Program-made: the position numbers and the translations under genes | Notes under the pieces: model-generated | Databases searched by the model: none | The model's input: only the letters and a program-made list of their open reading frames with translations | Told to the model about the DNA's origin: nothing | Part shown: piece after piece, positions 16,165-61,877 of the stretch | Layout: each line of letters opens with the position of its first letter | How positions within the stretch are numbered: position 1 is the stretch's first letter | Assembly (NCBI RefSeq): GCF_001238275.1 | Contig: NZ_LGTB01000007.1 | Coordinates: 124,001 to 188,000 of the forward strand | Length of the DNA stretch: 64,000 nt | Source: Bradyrhizobium viridifuturi | GTDB taxonomy: Bacteria; Pseudomonadota; Alphaproteobacteria; Rhizobiales; Xanthobacteraceae | Reading direction: 5' to 3'

Positions 16165-16302
16165 CGGTCCCCCAAGGCCTGCAACTGACAAATCAACCTG
16201 CAACAAACGCCGCCGCGCGGAAAACGTTGCATGGGTGATGTTAGCGGCAAGAGTTCGTGGTTCGTATGACGCCGAGGCAGCACTCGCTCAACACATTCGG
16301 TA

Positions 16303-16423
16303 TCGTCCCGGCGAAAGCCGGGACCCATAACCACGAATGGTCATTGTTGAGCGATGTTGAAACGACGAGTTCCTTCAGCAATATCCGCCGCGGAGTATGG
16401 CTCCCGGCTTTCGCCGGGACGAC
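16303..16423. repeat. Short non-coding element with hairpin inverted ends
   Basis: Roughly 120-base element bounded by inverted arms. Each arm contains the hairpin TCCCGGC-GAAA-GCCGGGA (left arm from 16305, right arm ending at about 16422); beyond the hairpin the arms differ at some positions. The arms match the terminal repeats of the GIY-YIG element at 60056-60456, except that the stem pair T-A is replaced by C-G, which keeps the pairing. There is no coding capacity inside. It looks like a non-autonomous relative of that element. Confidence 0.75.
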
Positions 16424-16454
16424 GTATGAAGAGAATCTTGTCCCGACCTACACC

Positions 16455-56776: not shown

Positions 56777-59362
56777 TTATCCCTTCGCCTCGCGCTGGCT
56801 GCCCAGCTGCGGCGCGGCGGTCGGGTGCACCGGCACGTGCCAGATGTCCTCGGCGTATTCGCGGATGGTGCGGTCGGAGGAGAACCACGCCATGCGCGCC
56901 ACGTTGAGGATCGAGGCGCGGGTCCAGGCCGGCGGCACCTGCCAGCGCGCGTCGATGCTACGCTGCGCGTCGTAGTAGGAATCGAAATCGGCCGAGACCA
57001 TGTAATGGTCGAGGTAGCGCAACGCGTGGCCGATCGAGGCGAAGCGCGCGGCATCGCCCGGCGAGAACTCGCCGCTCTCGATGGCACGGATCGCGCGCTC
57101 GAGCCGCGGCGATCTGCGGATCACGTCAGAGGCATCGAGCCCCTGCTTGCGGCGGACCATGACGTCGCCGGCCTCCAGTCCGAAGATCGCGATGTTCTCG
57201 GGGCCGACGGCGTCGCGGATTTCGATATTGGCGCCGTCGAGCGTGCCGATGGTCAGCGCGCCGTTCAGCGCGAGCTTCATGTTGCCGGTGCCGGAGGCTT
57301 CCATGCCGGCGGTCGAGATCTGCTCGGACAGATCGGCGGCCGGAATGATCACCTCAGCGAGGCTGACATTGTAGTCGGCGAGGAAGACCACCTTCAGTCT
57401 GCCGCCGAGCGAGGCGTCATTGTTGACGACCTCGGCGACGTCGCTGATCAGCTTGATGATCAGCTTGGCGTAGCGATAGCTCGCCGCCGCCTTGCCGGCG
57501 AAGATCTTCACCCGCGGCACCCAGTTCGCGGCCGGGTCATCCTTCATCGCGTGATAAAGCGCGATCGTCTCCAGGATGTTGAGCAGCTGCCGCTTGTATT
57601 CATGGATGCGCTTGATCTGCACGTCGAACAGCGCCGACGGGTCGACCTTGACGTTGTTGCGCTCGCCGATCAGCCGCGCCAGCGCCAGCTTGTTGTGATG
57701 CTTGACGTCGCGGAACCGCTTCTGAAATTCGAGGTCGCTGGAATGCGCCTCAAGCCGATCGAGCAACGAGAAGTCGTCGAGCACGGCCTCGCCGCAGGTC
57801 TCGCGCAACAGCGCGGTCAGCCGCGGATTGGCCAGCATCAGCCAGCGGCGGAAGGTGATGCCGTTGGTCTTGTTGGTGATGCGCTGGGGATAGAGGTGAT
57901 GGAGATCGTGGAACACGGTCTCCTTCATCAGGTCGGAATGCATCGCCGAGACGCCGTTGATGCGATGCGAGCCGACGAAGGCGAGCTGGCCCATCCGCAC
58001 CCGGCGGCCGCTGCGCTCGTCGATCAGCGAGACCGAGGCGCGATATTCGATGTCGCCGGGGAAGCGCTCCTCGGCGAGCGCGAGATGGGCCACGTTGATG
58101 CGGTAGATGATCTCGAGATGCCGCGGCAGCAGCCGCTCGAACAGTTCGACCGGCCAGGTCTCGAGCGCCTCGGGCAGCAGCGTGTGATTGGTGTAGGACA
58201 GGGTTGCGACCGTGATCTTCCAGGCCTCGTCCCAGCGGAAATTGTGCAGGTCGACCAGGATGCGCATCAGCTCGGTGACGGCAAGGCTCGGATGGGTGTC
58301 GTTGAGCTGCACTGCCGCCTTCTGCGCGAGGTTGCGCAGGCCGCCGTCGGAGGCGAGGTGCCGATTCACCAGATCCTGCAGCGAGGCCGAGACGAAGAAA
58401 TATTCCTGGCGCAGGCGGAGCTCGCGGCCCGCCGCGCTCTCGTCGTTCGGATAGAGGAACTTGCAGATCGCTTCCGCGCGCGCCTGCTCGGCGCTGGCCG
58501 AGACGTAGTCGCCCGAGTTGAACACGTCGAGCTTGAGCGGGTCGGGCGCATGCGCCGACCACAGCCGCAGCGCGTTGACGTGCTGGCCGCGCCAGCCGAC
58601 GATCGGGGTGTCGTAGGCCATCGCCTCGACGGTTTCCGCCGGATGCCAGGTGGCGCGGTCGCGACCGCGCTCGTCGACATGCTCGACATGGCCGCCGAAA
58701 TGGACGTTGTAGACCACCTCCGGCCGCTGGAATTCCCAGGGGTTGCCGAAAGCCAGCCACTCGTCGGGATATTCCTGCTGCCAGCCCTGATTCATGATCT
58801 GGCGGAACAGGCCGAAATCGTAGCGGATGCCGTAGCCGGTCGCCGGGATCGCCAGCGTCGCCATGCTCTCCATGAAGCAGGCCGCGAGCCGCCCGAGGCC
58901 GCCATTGCCGAGCGCCGCATCCGGCTCGCATTTGCGCAGGTCCGAGAGATCGACGCCGAGGTCGCCGAGCGCGGCCTCGAACAGCGGCAGCAGCCCCATA
59001 TTGTTCAGCGCGTCGGTGAACAGGCGGCCGATCAGGAATTCCAGCGAGAGATAATAGACGCGCTTGGCGCCGGCATCGTAGGTCTGCTTCTCGGCCGTCA
59101 GCCAGTGGTGCACGATGCGGTCGCGCAGCGCCAGCGCCGCCGCCTTGTACCAGTCACGCCGGGTCGCAACGGTGGCGTCCTTGCCGATCGCAAGCCGCAG
59201 CTTGGCCAGGATCGCGCCCTTGATCTCGGTCAGCGCCAGCTCGTCAACCGGCTGATTCAAGGCCGGATAATTTGTCTGTTCCTGCAACGCCCAATCCCTG
59301 CCGTTCAGACGGGAACCTGATGCCATGGCAGGCATCATGCTCTCGTCGCCTTGTTTGAGCAT
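56777..59362 (-). CDS. glgP: Glycogen phosphorylase
   Basis: Glycogen/starch phosphorylase of 861 residues, full length. It releases glucose-1-phosphate from glycogen ends using pyridoxal phosphate. Motifs in order: YYLSLEFLIGRLFTDALNNM near residue 64, GNGGLGRLAACFMESMATL, LNDTHPSLAVTELMRILVD, TKTNGITFRRWL-type segment (TNKTNGITFRRWLMLANPRL), IHEYKRQLLNILETI, KIFAGKAAASYRYAKLIIKL and the cofactor segment EASGTGNMKLALNGALTIGT, with its lysine near residue 697. It is intact. Other glycogen genes are absent around it; glgX lies about 40 kb to the left. Confidence 0.95.
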   Translation of the reverse strand: MLKQGDESMMPAMASGSRLNGRDWALQEQTNYPALNQPVDELALTEIKGAILAKLRLAIGKDATVATRRDWYKAAALALRDRIVHHWLTAEKQTYDAGAKRVYYLSLEFLIGRLFTDALNNMGLLPLFEAALGDLGVDLSDLRKCEPDAALGNGGLGRLAACFMESMATLAIPATGYGIRYDFGLFRQIMNQGWQQEYPDEWLAFGNPWEFQRPEVVYNVHFGGHVEHVDERGRDRATWHPAETVEAMAYDTPIVGWRGQHVNALRLWSAHAPDPLKLDVFNSGDYVSASAEQARAEAICKFLYPNDESAAGRELRLRQEYFFVSASLQDLVNRHLASDGGLRNLAQKAAVQLNDTHPSLAVTELMRILVDLHNFRWDEAWKITVATLSYTNHTLLPEALETWPVELFERLLPRHLEIIYRINVAHLALAEERFPGDIEYRASVSLIDERSGRRVRMGQLAFVGSHRINGVSAMHSDLMKETVFHDLHHLYPQRITNKTNGITFRRWLMLANPRLTALLRETCGEAVLDDFSLLDRLEAHSSDLEFQKRFRDVKHHNKLALARLIGERNNVKVDPSALFDVQIKRIHEYKRQLLNILETIALYHAMKDDPAANWVPRVKIFAGKAAASYRYAKLIIKLISDVAEVVNNDASLGGRLKVVFLADYNVSLAEVIIPAADLSEQISTAGMEASGTGNMKLALNGALTIGTLDGANIEIRDAVGPENIAIFGLEAGDVMVRRKQGLDASDVIRRSPRLERAIRAIESGEFSPGDAARFASIGHALRYLDHYMVSADFDSYYDAQRSIDARWQVPPAWTRASILNVARMAWFSSDRTIREYAEDIWHVPVHPTAAPQLGSQREAKG

Positions 59363-59585
59363 GGTCCCTCGGAAATTCCGGTATCCGCGGTTCCCCGATC
59401 ATGCTCCGACGCAATGATACGCGCGTTGCACGGCAATCGAAACCGTCCGGGACAAGGCCATGCAGCGCTGCCGTGAATTTATGCAAGGACCGGGCCGCTC
59501 CGGGAACCTTCCGAAGCCGCCCGCGCAGGTGCTACGATCGGCTGCGAAACGCGAGATTTTGCGACAATTTAGCGGAGGATGCGTG

Positions 59586-59819
59586 ATGAGGCTTTTGATC
59601 GAGATCGCGGCCGCGGCATTGCTCGTGGTGTGCATCGCGGCGACCAGCGCAGCCTATGCGGCGGGCAAATTGGGCCGCAGCGCCGACGGCCTGACGTGCG
59701 GCTTTCGCGTGGCGCAGAACGCGTCGCCGGCGGCGCGCTGTGCCGCCATCAAGCGGCAATGCGGCGGCAAGTTCTACGCAAACGCCTGCGGCGACAGACT
59801 GCTGTCGGCGGCGAATTGA
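59586..59819 (+). CDS. Small secreted cysteine-containing protein
   Basis: Hypothetical protein of 77 residues with a clear signal peptide (MRLLIEIAAAALLVVCIAAT, ending AAYAAG). The mature part has four cysteines (ADGLTCGFRVAQ, ARCAAIKRQCGG, YANACGDRLL), probably two disulfides. A ribosome site (ggagga) precedes the ATG. It is divergent from glgP. No family is recognised. Confidence 0.7.
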   Translation: MRLLIEIAAAALLVVCIAATSAAYAAGKLGRSADGLTCGFRVAQNASPAARCAAIKRQCGGKFYANACGDRLLSAAN

Positions 59820-59969
59820 CGGTCGCGCAAGGCGCCTTCACGCGCAATCGGGAACACCGTGGTGATACGGATTCCCAGAACTTAAGGAGTTCTTTACAAA
59901 CACCCCTGTCGCTCGTGGGGCGGGCAACATTTCAAGCTCCGACGCATTTCATTCCGAAGCAATTTTCAA

Positions 59970-59996
59970 CGGGCCGCTGACCTAGTCAGCGGCCCG
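59970..59996. other. Perfect 12-base-pair hairpin, terminator-like
   Basis: CGGGCCGCTGAC and GTCAGCGGCCCG around the 3-base loop cta, with an outer gcaatt / aattgc pair extending the symmetry. No T-run of more than three follows. It sits 150 bases after the small secreted protein gene and could terminate that transcript or belong to a small RNA. Confidence 0.6.
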
Positions 59997-60055
59997 AATT
60001 GCTTTGGGGGGCAGGCATATCCGTGACAGAGCGATGATGCTCGGTCGCGCCACAT

Positions 60056-60090
60056 CGTCGTCCTGGCGAAAGCCAGGACCCATTACCCCA
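60056..60090. repeat. Left terminal inverted repeat of the GIY-YIG element
   Basis: Begins cgtcgtcctggcgaaagcc and ends cccattacccca; an exact reverse complement of 60422-60456. Confidence 0.9.
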
Positions 60091-60094
60091 ACTG

Positions 60095-60388
60095 TCAAAT
60101 GAGGTCGGACCGGTCGCTCCAATCCGGATTTTCCGCTTCAATCAGCTTGATCTTCCAATCGCGTTTCCAGAACTTCAATTGCTTCTCGCGTGCGATGGCT
60201 TCCTGCGGCGTGGCGAATTCCTCGACATGAACGAGACGGAAGACTTGGTATTCATACACAAACTTGGAGCCGCGGCCCGAGCGATGCAGTTCGAGCCGGG
60301 TATGAATGTCATTGGTGACGCCGATGTAGAGCGTTCCGTGATGGCGGCTCGCGAGAATGTAGACGTAGTAGCTGACCGCAGCTTTCAT
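60095..60388 (-). CDS. GIY-YIG nuclease family protein
   Basis: Small GIY-YIG-fold protein of 97 residues, a stand-alone nuclease domain of the UPF0213/YhbQ-like kind. The two signature tyrosines are in YYVYILASRHHG (residues 8-19) and LYIGVTNDIHTRLELHR (about 20-36, with the conserved Arg). The metal-binding Glu lies in ATPQEAIAREKQLKFWKRDW. The chosen ATG at 60388 lies inside the inverted repeats; the frame continues through the right repeat without resemblance to the family. Such nucleases cut DNA strands. The whole gene is enclosed by perfect inverted repeats, so it may act on those repeats. Confidence 0.85.
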   Translation of the reverse strand: MKAAVSYYVYILASRHHGTLYIGVTNDIHTRLELHRSGRGSKFVYEYQVFRLVHVEEFATPQEAIAREKQLKFWKRDWKIKLIEAENPDWSDRSDLI

Positions 60389-60421
60389 GGTTTGGCCCAA
60401 GCTCGCGATATGTCGACCTGC

Positions 60422-60456
60422 TGGGGTAATGGGTCCTGGCTTTCGCCAGGACGACG
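60422..60456. repeat. Right terminal inverted repeat of the GIY-YIG element
   Basis: Begins tggggtaatgggtcctgg and ends ggctttcgccaggacgacg; an exact reverse complement of 60056-60090. Confidence 0.9.
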
Positions 60457-60585
60457 CCCAATGATGACCATCTAAAAACCACCAAGAACGAATTAAGAAC
60501 ACTTTAGCAAGTCTTTGATATATCATTATGATTCGGCGCTGTGCCAATACAATATCTAGGGTCTCCCAGCCTCCGCGAGGACTAC

Positions 60586-61017
60586 ATGTCCACCATCGCC
60601 TTCGATCAGTTCGCTCTCACCCGCATCGCGGATTTCGCCCGCTCGCTGTCGCGGCTGCACCAGGCCTCGCGGCGCCAGCCGATCGACGACGACCAGCTCG
60701 ATCGCGAGTTCAACGCGGTATGCATGTCGATCTGGGGCTACACCACGGATGATTTCAGCGACGAGCTGTTTTCGCTCGACGATCACGCCTGGCTCGATTC
60801 GCTCGACGAGGCGCATGCGCGCCTGTTCGCCGCCGAGCAGGGCTACGATCTCGTCGACGACCACGGCATGCTGACGGATTGGTGGGGCTATTGCTGGATG
60901 ATCCTCGCCGAGAAGCGCGGTCTCCTCACCGCCGAGAACCGCGCCGCCGCGCGGGCGGCGATCGAGGAGAAATACATGGCCGCGCCGAACGTGATCGGCG
61001 TGATCGTGGCGCGTTAA
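60586..61017 (+). CDS. Hypothetical soluble protein
   Basis: Acidic soluble protein of 143 residues, starting at the ATG at 60586 (MSTIAFDQFALTRIADFARS); 15 codons upstream the frame stays open but lacks a ribosome site, while gcgaggac precedes the chosen start. It has many aspartates and tryptophans (SIWGYTTDDFSDELFSLDDH, MLTDWWGYCWMILAEKRGLL) and appears all-helical. No domain is recognised. Its last codons overlap by 4 bases the 3' end of the convergent DUF2865 gene. Confidence 0.72.
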   Translation: MSTIAFDQFALTRIADFARSLSRLHQASRRQPIDDDQLDREFNAVCMSIWGYTTDDFSDELFSLDDHAWLDSLDEAHARLFAAEQGYDLVDDHGMLTDWWGYCWMILAEKRGLLTAENRAAARAAIEEKYMAAPNVIGVIVAR

Positions 61018-61877
61018 TTCGCCTCGGCGCGCTTGCCGGACTTTGCCGCGTTGCCCTTCGGCGCGACGGACGACGGCGCGACATCGCTTCTGGTCTCCGG
61101 CAGCGGCGCGTCGCTGGCGAGCTCGGCGCTGACGGGCGCAACCCTCATCTCGCCGAGCCGCGCGCGGACCGCCGCAGTCAATCCGGGATAGGAGGCGACC
61201 GGGGTGAAGTCGAACGACTGCTCGTTGCCGACCCGGACGCCGGTATAGGCGACCAGGCCGTCGGTGGTCGCGATCACGTCACCGGCCTTCAGCGAGGCGT
61301 CGAGCGCGAGGTCGACCGGCGCGAGCCCGGCCGGGTCGCGGCCGTTGCAGGTGCAGTCGGCGCGCAGCGCCTTGCGGTAGGCGAAGGCGGTCTCGCTGTC
61401 GGCGTAGCGCTCGCCCGTGCTCGATGCTGAGCTGTCGATATGGCTGCCGTAATAGACCTTGGTCGCGCTCGCGGGGCAGAACGCCTGGCAGAGCTGCGCC
61501 GGCGTCGCGTTGCCGCGCATCGTCAGCGGAAAATACTTGCCGTCGCAGGTCCGCACGCAATAGGCCGGCCCGGAACCGGCGACGCGCGGTGCCGAGGTGG
61601 GTGTGGAAGTCTGCCGTTCCGGCTGGTTGAGGCCGAACGGATCGGCGAAGAAATTGGCCTGCGGCGGGGCCTGCCGGCCCTGCTGCTTCTGGGAACCGCC
61701 GAAGAAGAAGTCGAACAGCCCTTCGGCTGAGACGGGAGCGGGCACGACCACGACGGAACCCGCAAAGGCTGCGGCGGCAAGCATCACACAGCGCCGCACG
61801 CGCCGATCACTCAACTCTGTACGCAACGCCAACTCCACCCGACGCGCCGCGGCGGCAAGGTGCCCCGGCGGATTCAC
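61014..61877 (-). CDS. DUF2865-family exported protein
   Basis: Protein of 287 residues containing a DUF2865 domain, common in Bradyrhizobium and relatives. An N-terminal membrane/signal segment (RCVMLAAAAFAGSVVVVPAP) leads to a low-complexity linker and then the cysteine-rich domain at about residues 104-195: YCVRTCDGKYFPLTMRGNAT, LCQAFCPASATKVYYGSHID, and ALRADCTCNGRDPAG. Five or six cysteines suggest disulfides in the periplasm. The C-terminal part is less conserved. The function is unknown. An internal ATG at the signal segment (about 61784) could be the real start. Confidence 0.82.
   Translation of the reverse strand: MNPPGHLAAAARRVELALRTELSDRRVRRCVMLAAAAFAGSVVVVPAPVSAEGLFDFFFGGSQKQQGRQAPPQANFFADPFGLNQPERQTSTPTSAPRVAGSGPAYCVRTCDGKYFPLTMRGNATPAQLCQAFCPASATKVYYGSHIDSSASSTGERYADSETAFAYRKALRADCTCNGRDPAGLAPVDLALDASLKAGDVIATTDGLVAYTGVRVGNEQSFDFTPVASYPGLTAAVRARLGEMRVAPVSAELASDAPLPETRSDVAPSSVAPKGNAAKSGKRAEAN

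Follow-up and report, generated by a model that had tools for sequence, protein, structure and literature searches.

A GIY-YIG nuclease gene bounded by CGTC-1 REP hairpins in Bradyrhizobium viridifuturi, and the co-variation of enzyme and hairpin among its homologues

Results

The analysed stretch of Bradyrhizobium viridifuturi DNA, 64,000 nucleotides in length and referred to here as the window, carries an intergenic unit of 401 bp in which a small GIY-YIG nuclease gene lies between the arms of a perfect 35-bp inverted repeat (60056-60090 / 60422-60456; 331 nt between the arms). The features of the unit, and a gene-less pair of related hairpins elsewhere in the window, are as follows:

60056..60456, no strand: REP-bounded GIY-YIG unit, 401 bp (inverted-repeat and ORF anatomy)
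60056..60090, plus strand: left arm, CGTC-1 REP, 4 nt past the gene stop (class according to the available text of PMC3733652)
Left-arm parts, plus strand: CGTC 60056-60059; stem 60060-60067/60072-60079; loop GAAA 60068-60071; tail 60080-60090 (folding)
60422..60456, minus strand: right arm, CGTC-1 REP identical to the left one, 33 nt ahead of the gene's ATG (repeat search, folding)
60095..60388, minus strand: GIY-YIG nuclease gene, 97 aa plus stop (Pfam, AF2 model, dN/dS)
60164..60172, minus strand: codons of residues 73 (F), 74 (W) and 75 (K), the predicted hairpin-reading turn (co-variation, model)
16301..16424, no strand: gene-less head-to-head pair of related REP hairpins, 124 bp (each half at most 4 mismatches from a 27-nt consensus)

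The open reading frame runs on the minus strand from an ATG at 60388 to a stop codon at 60095-60097, 4 bases from the left arm, which ends at 60090. These coordinates and the Pfam match bear out the earlier note, which had placed a 97-residue GIY-YIG gene within perfect 35-base inverted repeats with its stop 4 bases from one of them. Each arm has the order CGTC - GTCCTGGC - GAAA - GCCAGGAC - CCATTACCCCA and folds into an 8-bp hairpin (-9.4 kcal/mol on either strand) with stability z-scores of -4.8 and -4.6 for the two strands, equalled by none of 200 shuffles; the GAAA loop had been recognized correctly, while the stem had been put at 7 bp. Rfam returned no match within 59300-61100, and the unit does not lie inside an intron, intein or conserved gene, the setting of a homing endonuclease.

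The gene matches the Pfam GIY-YIG family at 1.3e-16 (61.1 bits, cut-off 22.6) and Pfam finds only GIY-YIG in it, with no tyrosine (HUH Y1) transposase of the kind that marks a RAYT, in agreement with the earlier proposal of a GIY-YIG partner enzyme. The only NCBIfam match, to a group I intron endonuclease, was sub-threshold. Residues Y10, Y21, G23, R31 and E68, which presumably have catalytic roles, are invariant in a 63-row alignment, and the AF2 model of the 97-aa protein (pLDDT 95.4) places residues 73 and 75 in the turn that joins the final two helices. The closest solved structures by sequence and fold are UPF0213 proteins (PDB 1zg2 and 1ywl; 32% and 29% identity), with Slx1 also close by fold. 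UPF0213 proteins are widespread small GIY-YIG proteins for which we know of no REP link. Purifying selection acts on the enzyme (median dN/dS 0.09, range 0.03-0.22; 45 pairs, 10 orthologues). A second, distant GIY-YIG gene is found in the same genome (L003, C84:4857-5075), near a different inverted repeat (1367-1388 and 1815-1836, CCGTCATCCTGAGGTGCGAGC type) that is probably another REP family.

REPs of the CGTC-1 class, as described in the available text of Di Nocera et al. 2013 (PMC3733652), are located between genes, occur in Bradyrhizobium, and combine a CGTC tag, an 8-bp stem, a 4-nt loop and a CCA tail, mostly in head-to-head dimers; their neisserial members are dRS3. No dedicated transposase is reported for them in that text, and 'GIY' is absent from its main text (PMC3733652). 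The arms of the unit have the same tag, stem length, loop length and tail, and have many dispersed copies, mostly as head-to-head dimers, an anatomy that confirms their earlier description as REP-like. The tag is CGTC and not the GTAG type of the RAYT/REPtron arrangement. The published stems almost invariably begin with complementary A-T in positions 1 and 2 (PMC3733652, available text), whereas the arm stem starts GT (position 1 G-C, position 2 T-A), and AT-start stems are found next to the genes of relatives. Judged by sequence anatomy against that description, the arms are CGTC-1 REPs with one deviation, the G-T stem start.

The same genome (8.81 Mb, 152 contigs) contains 56 exact copies of the stem (reversed control pattern, 0), often in gene-less head-to-head pairs, so that copies with and without the gene, a comparison the earlier note had called for, do coexist. 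At least 16 short head-to-head pairs are present among the matches listed, with 90-96 nt from the start of one stem to that of the other. Pairs in the segments taken from four relatives mostly measure 122-124 bp, and dimers make up 12/18, 15/22, 8/15 and 5/10 of the CGTC-1-like units, gene units included. Within the window, the head and stem pattern (≤3 mismatches) occurs 4 times against 0.03 expected. Across a family sample of 296 genomes, the five with a ≥80% identical enzyme hold 24-77 stem copies; among the other 291, G064, whose enzyme matches in two frames, has 23 and the remainder 0-5. Single double-headed hairpins are rare: the four relatives' segments (~1.48 Mb) contain 4 and the window none. 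Several of the own-genome pairs L005-L007 and L010 combine one ATTACCCC-like arm with one ATAACCAC-tailed arm, unlike the gene unit with its two ATTACCCC arms.

Alignment of the window region shows that many related species have the unit at the orthologous locus. The downstream gene is present in 143 of 146 same-genus genomes, and the enzyme is present in 12 of the best 30 loci for that gene. Seven of the 12 have GTCCTGGC ends (the window's own and six whose enzymes are 84.5-90% identical to it), and five have 70-72% identical enzymes with GCCCCGGC-type ends, L060 among them with one GTCCCGGC arm. Enzyme and hairpin ends switch together at this locus in close relatives: the downstream 0.9 kb is 96.4-96.9% identical among genomes G334, G341 and G417, and G417 has another enzyme with other ends. 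The remaining 18 loci lack such a gene and hold dissimilar DNA of 163 to >900 bp with no clean empty site, and no CGTC-type hairpin of this kind was found in the interval at 17 of them. At gene-less L069 (G381 C484:1804-1823) a single double-headed GCCCCGGC hairpin, possibly a remnant, sits approximately at the place of a unit arm, and in G399, also one of the 18, the unit lies ~18 kb from its usual downstream gene (C1:7682451 vs 7700719; L059). A conserved GC-rich stem-loop (CGGGCCGCTGAC..GTCAGCGGCCCG) is found left of the unit at window positions 59970-59996, and the cassette-swap zone begins directly past it.

Since the unit occupies the orthologous locus in relatives, a recent transposition of the unit is rejected, and neither a recent insertion with an empty site nor a target duplication, as for an insertion sequence or transposon, was found. 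The arms are nearly unchanged in L051, L053, L054, L055, L057 and L058, where dS of the gene against the window is 0.5-1.0, and have diverged in the more distant L021, L022 and L024, most in L024. Arm identity had been taken as a sign of recent activity; kept at such distances in six relatives, it speaks instead for constraint or concerted change.

The linkage of gene and hairpin was scored at 94 homologue loci (67 at ≥58% identity, 27 below) as outward CGTC-1 hairpins within 200 bp of the gene. At ≥58% identity, where many loci come from close relatives, hairpins were found on both sides in 53/67 and on at least one side in 65/67, the two without any being L204 and L206; L081 and L204 (58.1 and 58.4% identity) are counted in this group, the former with hairpins on both sides. 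Below 58%, one locus in 27 (L197) had them on both sides and another (L196) on a single side. The background was 0/12000 for both sides and 149/12000 for either side at random positions, and 3/1688 and 78/1688, respectively, at long ORFs. Gene and flanks share descent, so linkage alone is no proof of recognition. The earlier note had expected the idea to fail if most homologues lacked the same ends and related strains gave no pairs of empty and occupied sites. This came true in part: the exact ends are limited to one clade, but 65/67 of the loci at ≥58% identity have equivalent ends of their own class.

Further examples include a homologue on Azospirillum lipoferum AZO_p3 that lies between sufB and sufC among CGTC hairpins, one on Novosphingobium pNL2 with a 31-bp perfect repeat, and one on Sinorhizobium meliloti pSymB. 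A Neisseria gonorrhoeae homologue (L080, 50% identity) lies among dRS3-type hairpins, which we take to be dRS3 from the equation of CGTC-1 with dRS3. Many lower-identity homologues appear, by eye and with no background count, to be flanked by other palindrome families, such as TCATTCCGGGGCG..GCCCGGAATCC and GTGTCCCGGGCGC..GACCCGGGACCC at L099-L101 and L200-L217 (~49-58% identity), which suggests that other REP classes may also have a GIY-YIG partner of their own. Homologues on viral contigs (uncultivated; L316-L335) have CGTC-type hairpins on both gene sides in 11/20 cases. L342 (Planktothrix agardhii p1) lies between an annotated MmeI-type restriction-modification gene and drmA of DISARM. Two PLSDB records, those of L080 (NZ_CP119142.1, 2.17 Mb, N. 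gonorrhoeae) and L336 (NZ_AP026896.1, 4.94 Mb, Aeromonas caviae), are chromosome-like and filed as plasmids.

Stem class follows the enzyme. On a tree of 64 enzymes, few forks of which are well supported, the five stem classes require 6 changes (minimum, 4) compared to 36.4 when shuffled, with 0/200 shuffles as low; L021, which has one TGG and one CGG-like arm, was set to CGG in the tree and left out of the mutual information and of two of the three residue counts below. Paralogues within one genome (G248, G269, G289, G072, G168, G274) differ in class by enzyme clade. Hairpin counts were compared across 60 genomes (36 with a ≥58% enzyme and 24 without one listed; the gene's own arms counted), and median counts with and without the matching enzyme were 31 and 0 for TGG, 29 and 0 for CTG, 51 and 5 for CCG, and 17 and 0 for CGG. 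With relatedness ignored, Mann-Whitney p-values were 2.8e-10 (TGG), 2.3e-9 (CTG), 1.4e-7 (CCG) and 1.5e-4 (CGG) over all 60 genomes, and 6.5e-7, 2.0e-5, 3.2e-6 and 1.1e-2, respectively, over genomes with some enzyme.

The correspondence is not exclusive. The window's own genome has 93 CTG and 74 CGG hairpins and no CTG- or CGG-class enzyme among its matches; CTG hairpins are also present without a CTG enzyme in G228 (33), G093 (26) and G220 (25); G012 has 196 CCG hairpins and a best homologue at only E 1.4e-23; and 31-92 TGG hairpins are still found in six relatives whose enzyme has been replaced. A REP class therefore either persists beyond its matching enzyme or does not depend on one, and the hairpins of the own genome and of the six replaced-enzyme genomes rule out a strict model of one enzyme to one REP. 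The TGG clade is also rich in CGG hairpins (median, 54), and the CTG count in G248 and G269 is only 3. The GCCCCGGC class shows no sign of having been amplified by its enzyme, with 0-6 copies in 42 genomes; in G336 and G358 two of the three GCCCCGGC copies are the arms.

The residues most informative of stem class are 73 and 75 (mutual information, 1.71 and 1.28 of 2.18 bits), which flank Trp74 and track stem base 6 (s6). In the training set, F73 occurs in 10/10 TGG enzymes and 0/53 others, N or E73 in 15/15 of the CGG and GCGG classes and 0/48 others, and N75 in 19/19 CCG and 1/45 others (exception, L045). The rule fixed on the 64 enzymes reads F73 or N/E73 as G at s6, otherwise N75 as C, otherwise K/R73 with K75 as T. 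The held-out set comprised 109 loci (80 genome, 4 duplicates removed; 20 viral-contig; 13 plasmid-collection), from which only exact duplicates of training loci were taken out, near relatives being kept. After exclusion of 42 without an NGTC 8-bp hairpin, 27 with residues outside the rule and 2 with disagreeing arms, 38 were scored and the rule was right in 36 (shuffled mean, 13.0; maximum, 26 in 10000). By source, it was right in 29/31 genome, 5/5 viral-contig and 2/2 plasmid-collection loci, and wrong in L258 and L307.

Residue A73, absent from training, occurred with A at s6 in 9/9 scorable loci, two of them on one contig; all nine records carry names that we take to belong to the Sphingomonadales. 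Held-out enzymes with K73 and a residue other than N or K at position 75 had C in seven cases and G in one. Over 126 enzymes, training and held-out, N/E/F73 occurred with G in 39/39 (another seven enzymes paired with G carry different residues), N75 with C in 34/37 (10 C cases lack N75), K/R73 plus K75 with T in 23/24, and A73 with A in 9/9 (one A case has R73). The full code proposed from these sequences would thus pair A73 with A, N/E/F73 with G, K/R73 plus N75 with C, and K/R73 plus K75 with T. Relatives from Azospirillum and N. gonorrhoeae fit the code, the latter on its one scored arm. Contrasts on supported branches number 1-3 per trait, or 2-3 over the 126 enzymes, where none runs in the opposite direction; with so few, a sign test cannot reach 0.05.

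Empty sites for gene-less pairs were searched for in 400 kb each of G389, G299 and G304 and in 279 kb of G357. The hairpin was missing at the aligned place in the other genome in 17/49 dimer comparisons among three relatives, and none of the 17 is a clean empty site. Two flush absences keep hairpin remnants: at G389 292139 compared to G299 the difference is a deletion bounded by 7-bp direct repeats, and G299 346040 compared to G389 leaves one double-headed hairpin, which fits deletion between repeated half-stems. Other absences have unaligned junctions, as for G299 267975 and 392930, absent from G389, where the junctions cannot be aligned to the base, or another palindrome family at the place. 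Each of the five G357 dimers is matched by REPs at the corresponding position in G389. The comparison of empty and occupied sites that the earlier note had suggested thus produced no clean insertion pair, in orthologous loci or in the 49 dimer comparisons, and spreading of REPs by the enzyme stays hypothetical. Opposite the CGTC-1 pairs at G389 33044, 65889 and 213533, the corresponding intergenic gap of a close relative (G299 or G357) holds a different palindrome family, CCGTCACCCTGAGG.. or ATCGCCCGGCTCGACCGGGCGAT.., as though one repeat family could take another's place at a fixed spot.

Discussion

The unit is probably a cognate pair, in which a small GIY-YIG endonuclease recognises the CGTC-1 REP hairpin and its gene lies between two copies of that target. 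Enzyme and hairpin behave as such a pair, for which recognition of the hairpin by the enzyme is the simplest explanation; the sequence comparisons suggest that members of the enzyme family read these repeats and probably cut them. The enzyme would probably bind the hairpin as single-stranded or cruciform DNA, with stem base pair 6 read by the residues on either side of Trp74, and may then nick it, as reported for Ssn of Neisseria; GIY-YIG chemistry and the reported Ssn work point to nicking of single-stranded REP DNA. The REP copies elsewhere, often inverted pairs of ~120 bp, would be gene-less targets, and the cassette of gene and REPs would be inherited vertically at one locus and sometimes replaced whole, presumably by recombination. 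Binding and nicking of the hairpin, and any effect on DNA uptake or REP copy number, are what we infer from this arrangement.

A RAYT-like role, in which the enzyme uses single-stranded intermediates to move REP pairs, and at times its own cassette, and the pairs are non-autonomous elements, would account for the uniform size of the head-to-head pairs in four relatives, for a REP copy number that tracks enzyme class and for the 17/49 differences in presence. We regard it as rather unlikely, as none of those absences is a clean empty site, the G357 dimers are all matched by REPs in G389, and the gene unit is old at its locus. GIY-YIG enzymes are to our knowledge hydrolytic nucleases, with no joining activity known.

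It is improbable that the REPs are the gene's own RNA hairpins (terminator, mRNA stabiliser or autoregulatory operator), relevant to its expression only: such a role fits arms placed 4 nt past the stop and 33 nt ahead of the start, leaves the genome-wide copies and the match to enzyme class unexplained, and can hold in addition to the cognate-pair explanation. The idea that this is an ordinary housekeeping gene, beside which REPs gathered because they favour gene ends, draws on the widespread occurrence of UPF0213 proteins and on the many REPs without a gene. It would also suit the location of REPs between genes (PMC3733652, available text), and is already strongly disfavoured by flanking on both sides in 53/67 loci vs 3/1688 ORFs, by the co-variation of stem class with the enzyme tree and by the 36/38 held-out loci that the residue code predicts. 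Also very improbable is a homing-like process, in which the nuclease cuts cassette-less alleles and repair copies the cassette in: it fits the GIY-YIG fold and explains replacement of a whole cassette at a fixed locus, but the co-varying sequence lies in the cassette ends and not in an empty target, the 18/30 gene-less orthologous loci hold dissimilar DNA (163 to >900 bp) with no conserved homing site, and the same REPs are dispersed genome-wide.

For the cognate pair, the nearest known counterpart is Ssn, reportedly a site-specific single-stranded-DNA GIY-YIG nuclease of Neisseria whose target repeat is said to be present in hundreds of copies. The N. gonorrhoeae homologue L080 (50% identity, beside dRS3-type hairpins) may be Ssn. 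Both Ssn and the window enzyme are small GIY-YIG proteins, and by this analogy the window enzyme would most likely be a REP-hairpin-specific nuclease of the Ssn kind. Part or all of the link between gene and repeat may already be in print with Ssn; a literature search found no GIY-YIG–REP link in titles or abstract openings among the matches listed. The earlier note knew of no described element of this design; the repeat class has been published (PMC3733652, available text), and action of a GIY-YIG enzyme on such a repeat is reported for Neisseria. RAYT/TnpA-REP systems and REPINs likewise have an enzyme gene flanked by a REP that is also dispersed as inverted pairs (PMC3733652, available text). 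RAYTs differ in being tyrosine transposases with GTAG REPs, compared to a GIY-YIG nuclease with CGTC REPs here.

More tentatively, and with somewhat less than even confidence, GIY-YIG nucleases may be, in several bacterial phyla, the missing partners of the CGTC-REP superfamily, forming a second, RAYT-independent system that shapes, and perhaps spreads, REPs, with a two-residue code that would predict the target. CGTC REPs, for which the available text of PMC3733652 gave no dedicated transposase, were without an enzyme as of 2013, and are here linked to a GIY-YIG gene; this link and the residue-to-base rule make the question testable. The finding also suggests that small nucleases with predictable specificity for hairpins or ssDNA form a natural family, and offers a second case, beside RAYT/REPIN, for the co-evolution of repeat and enzyme.
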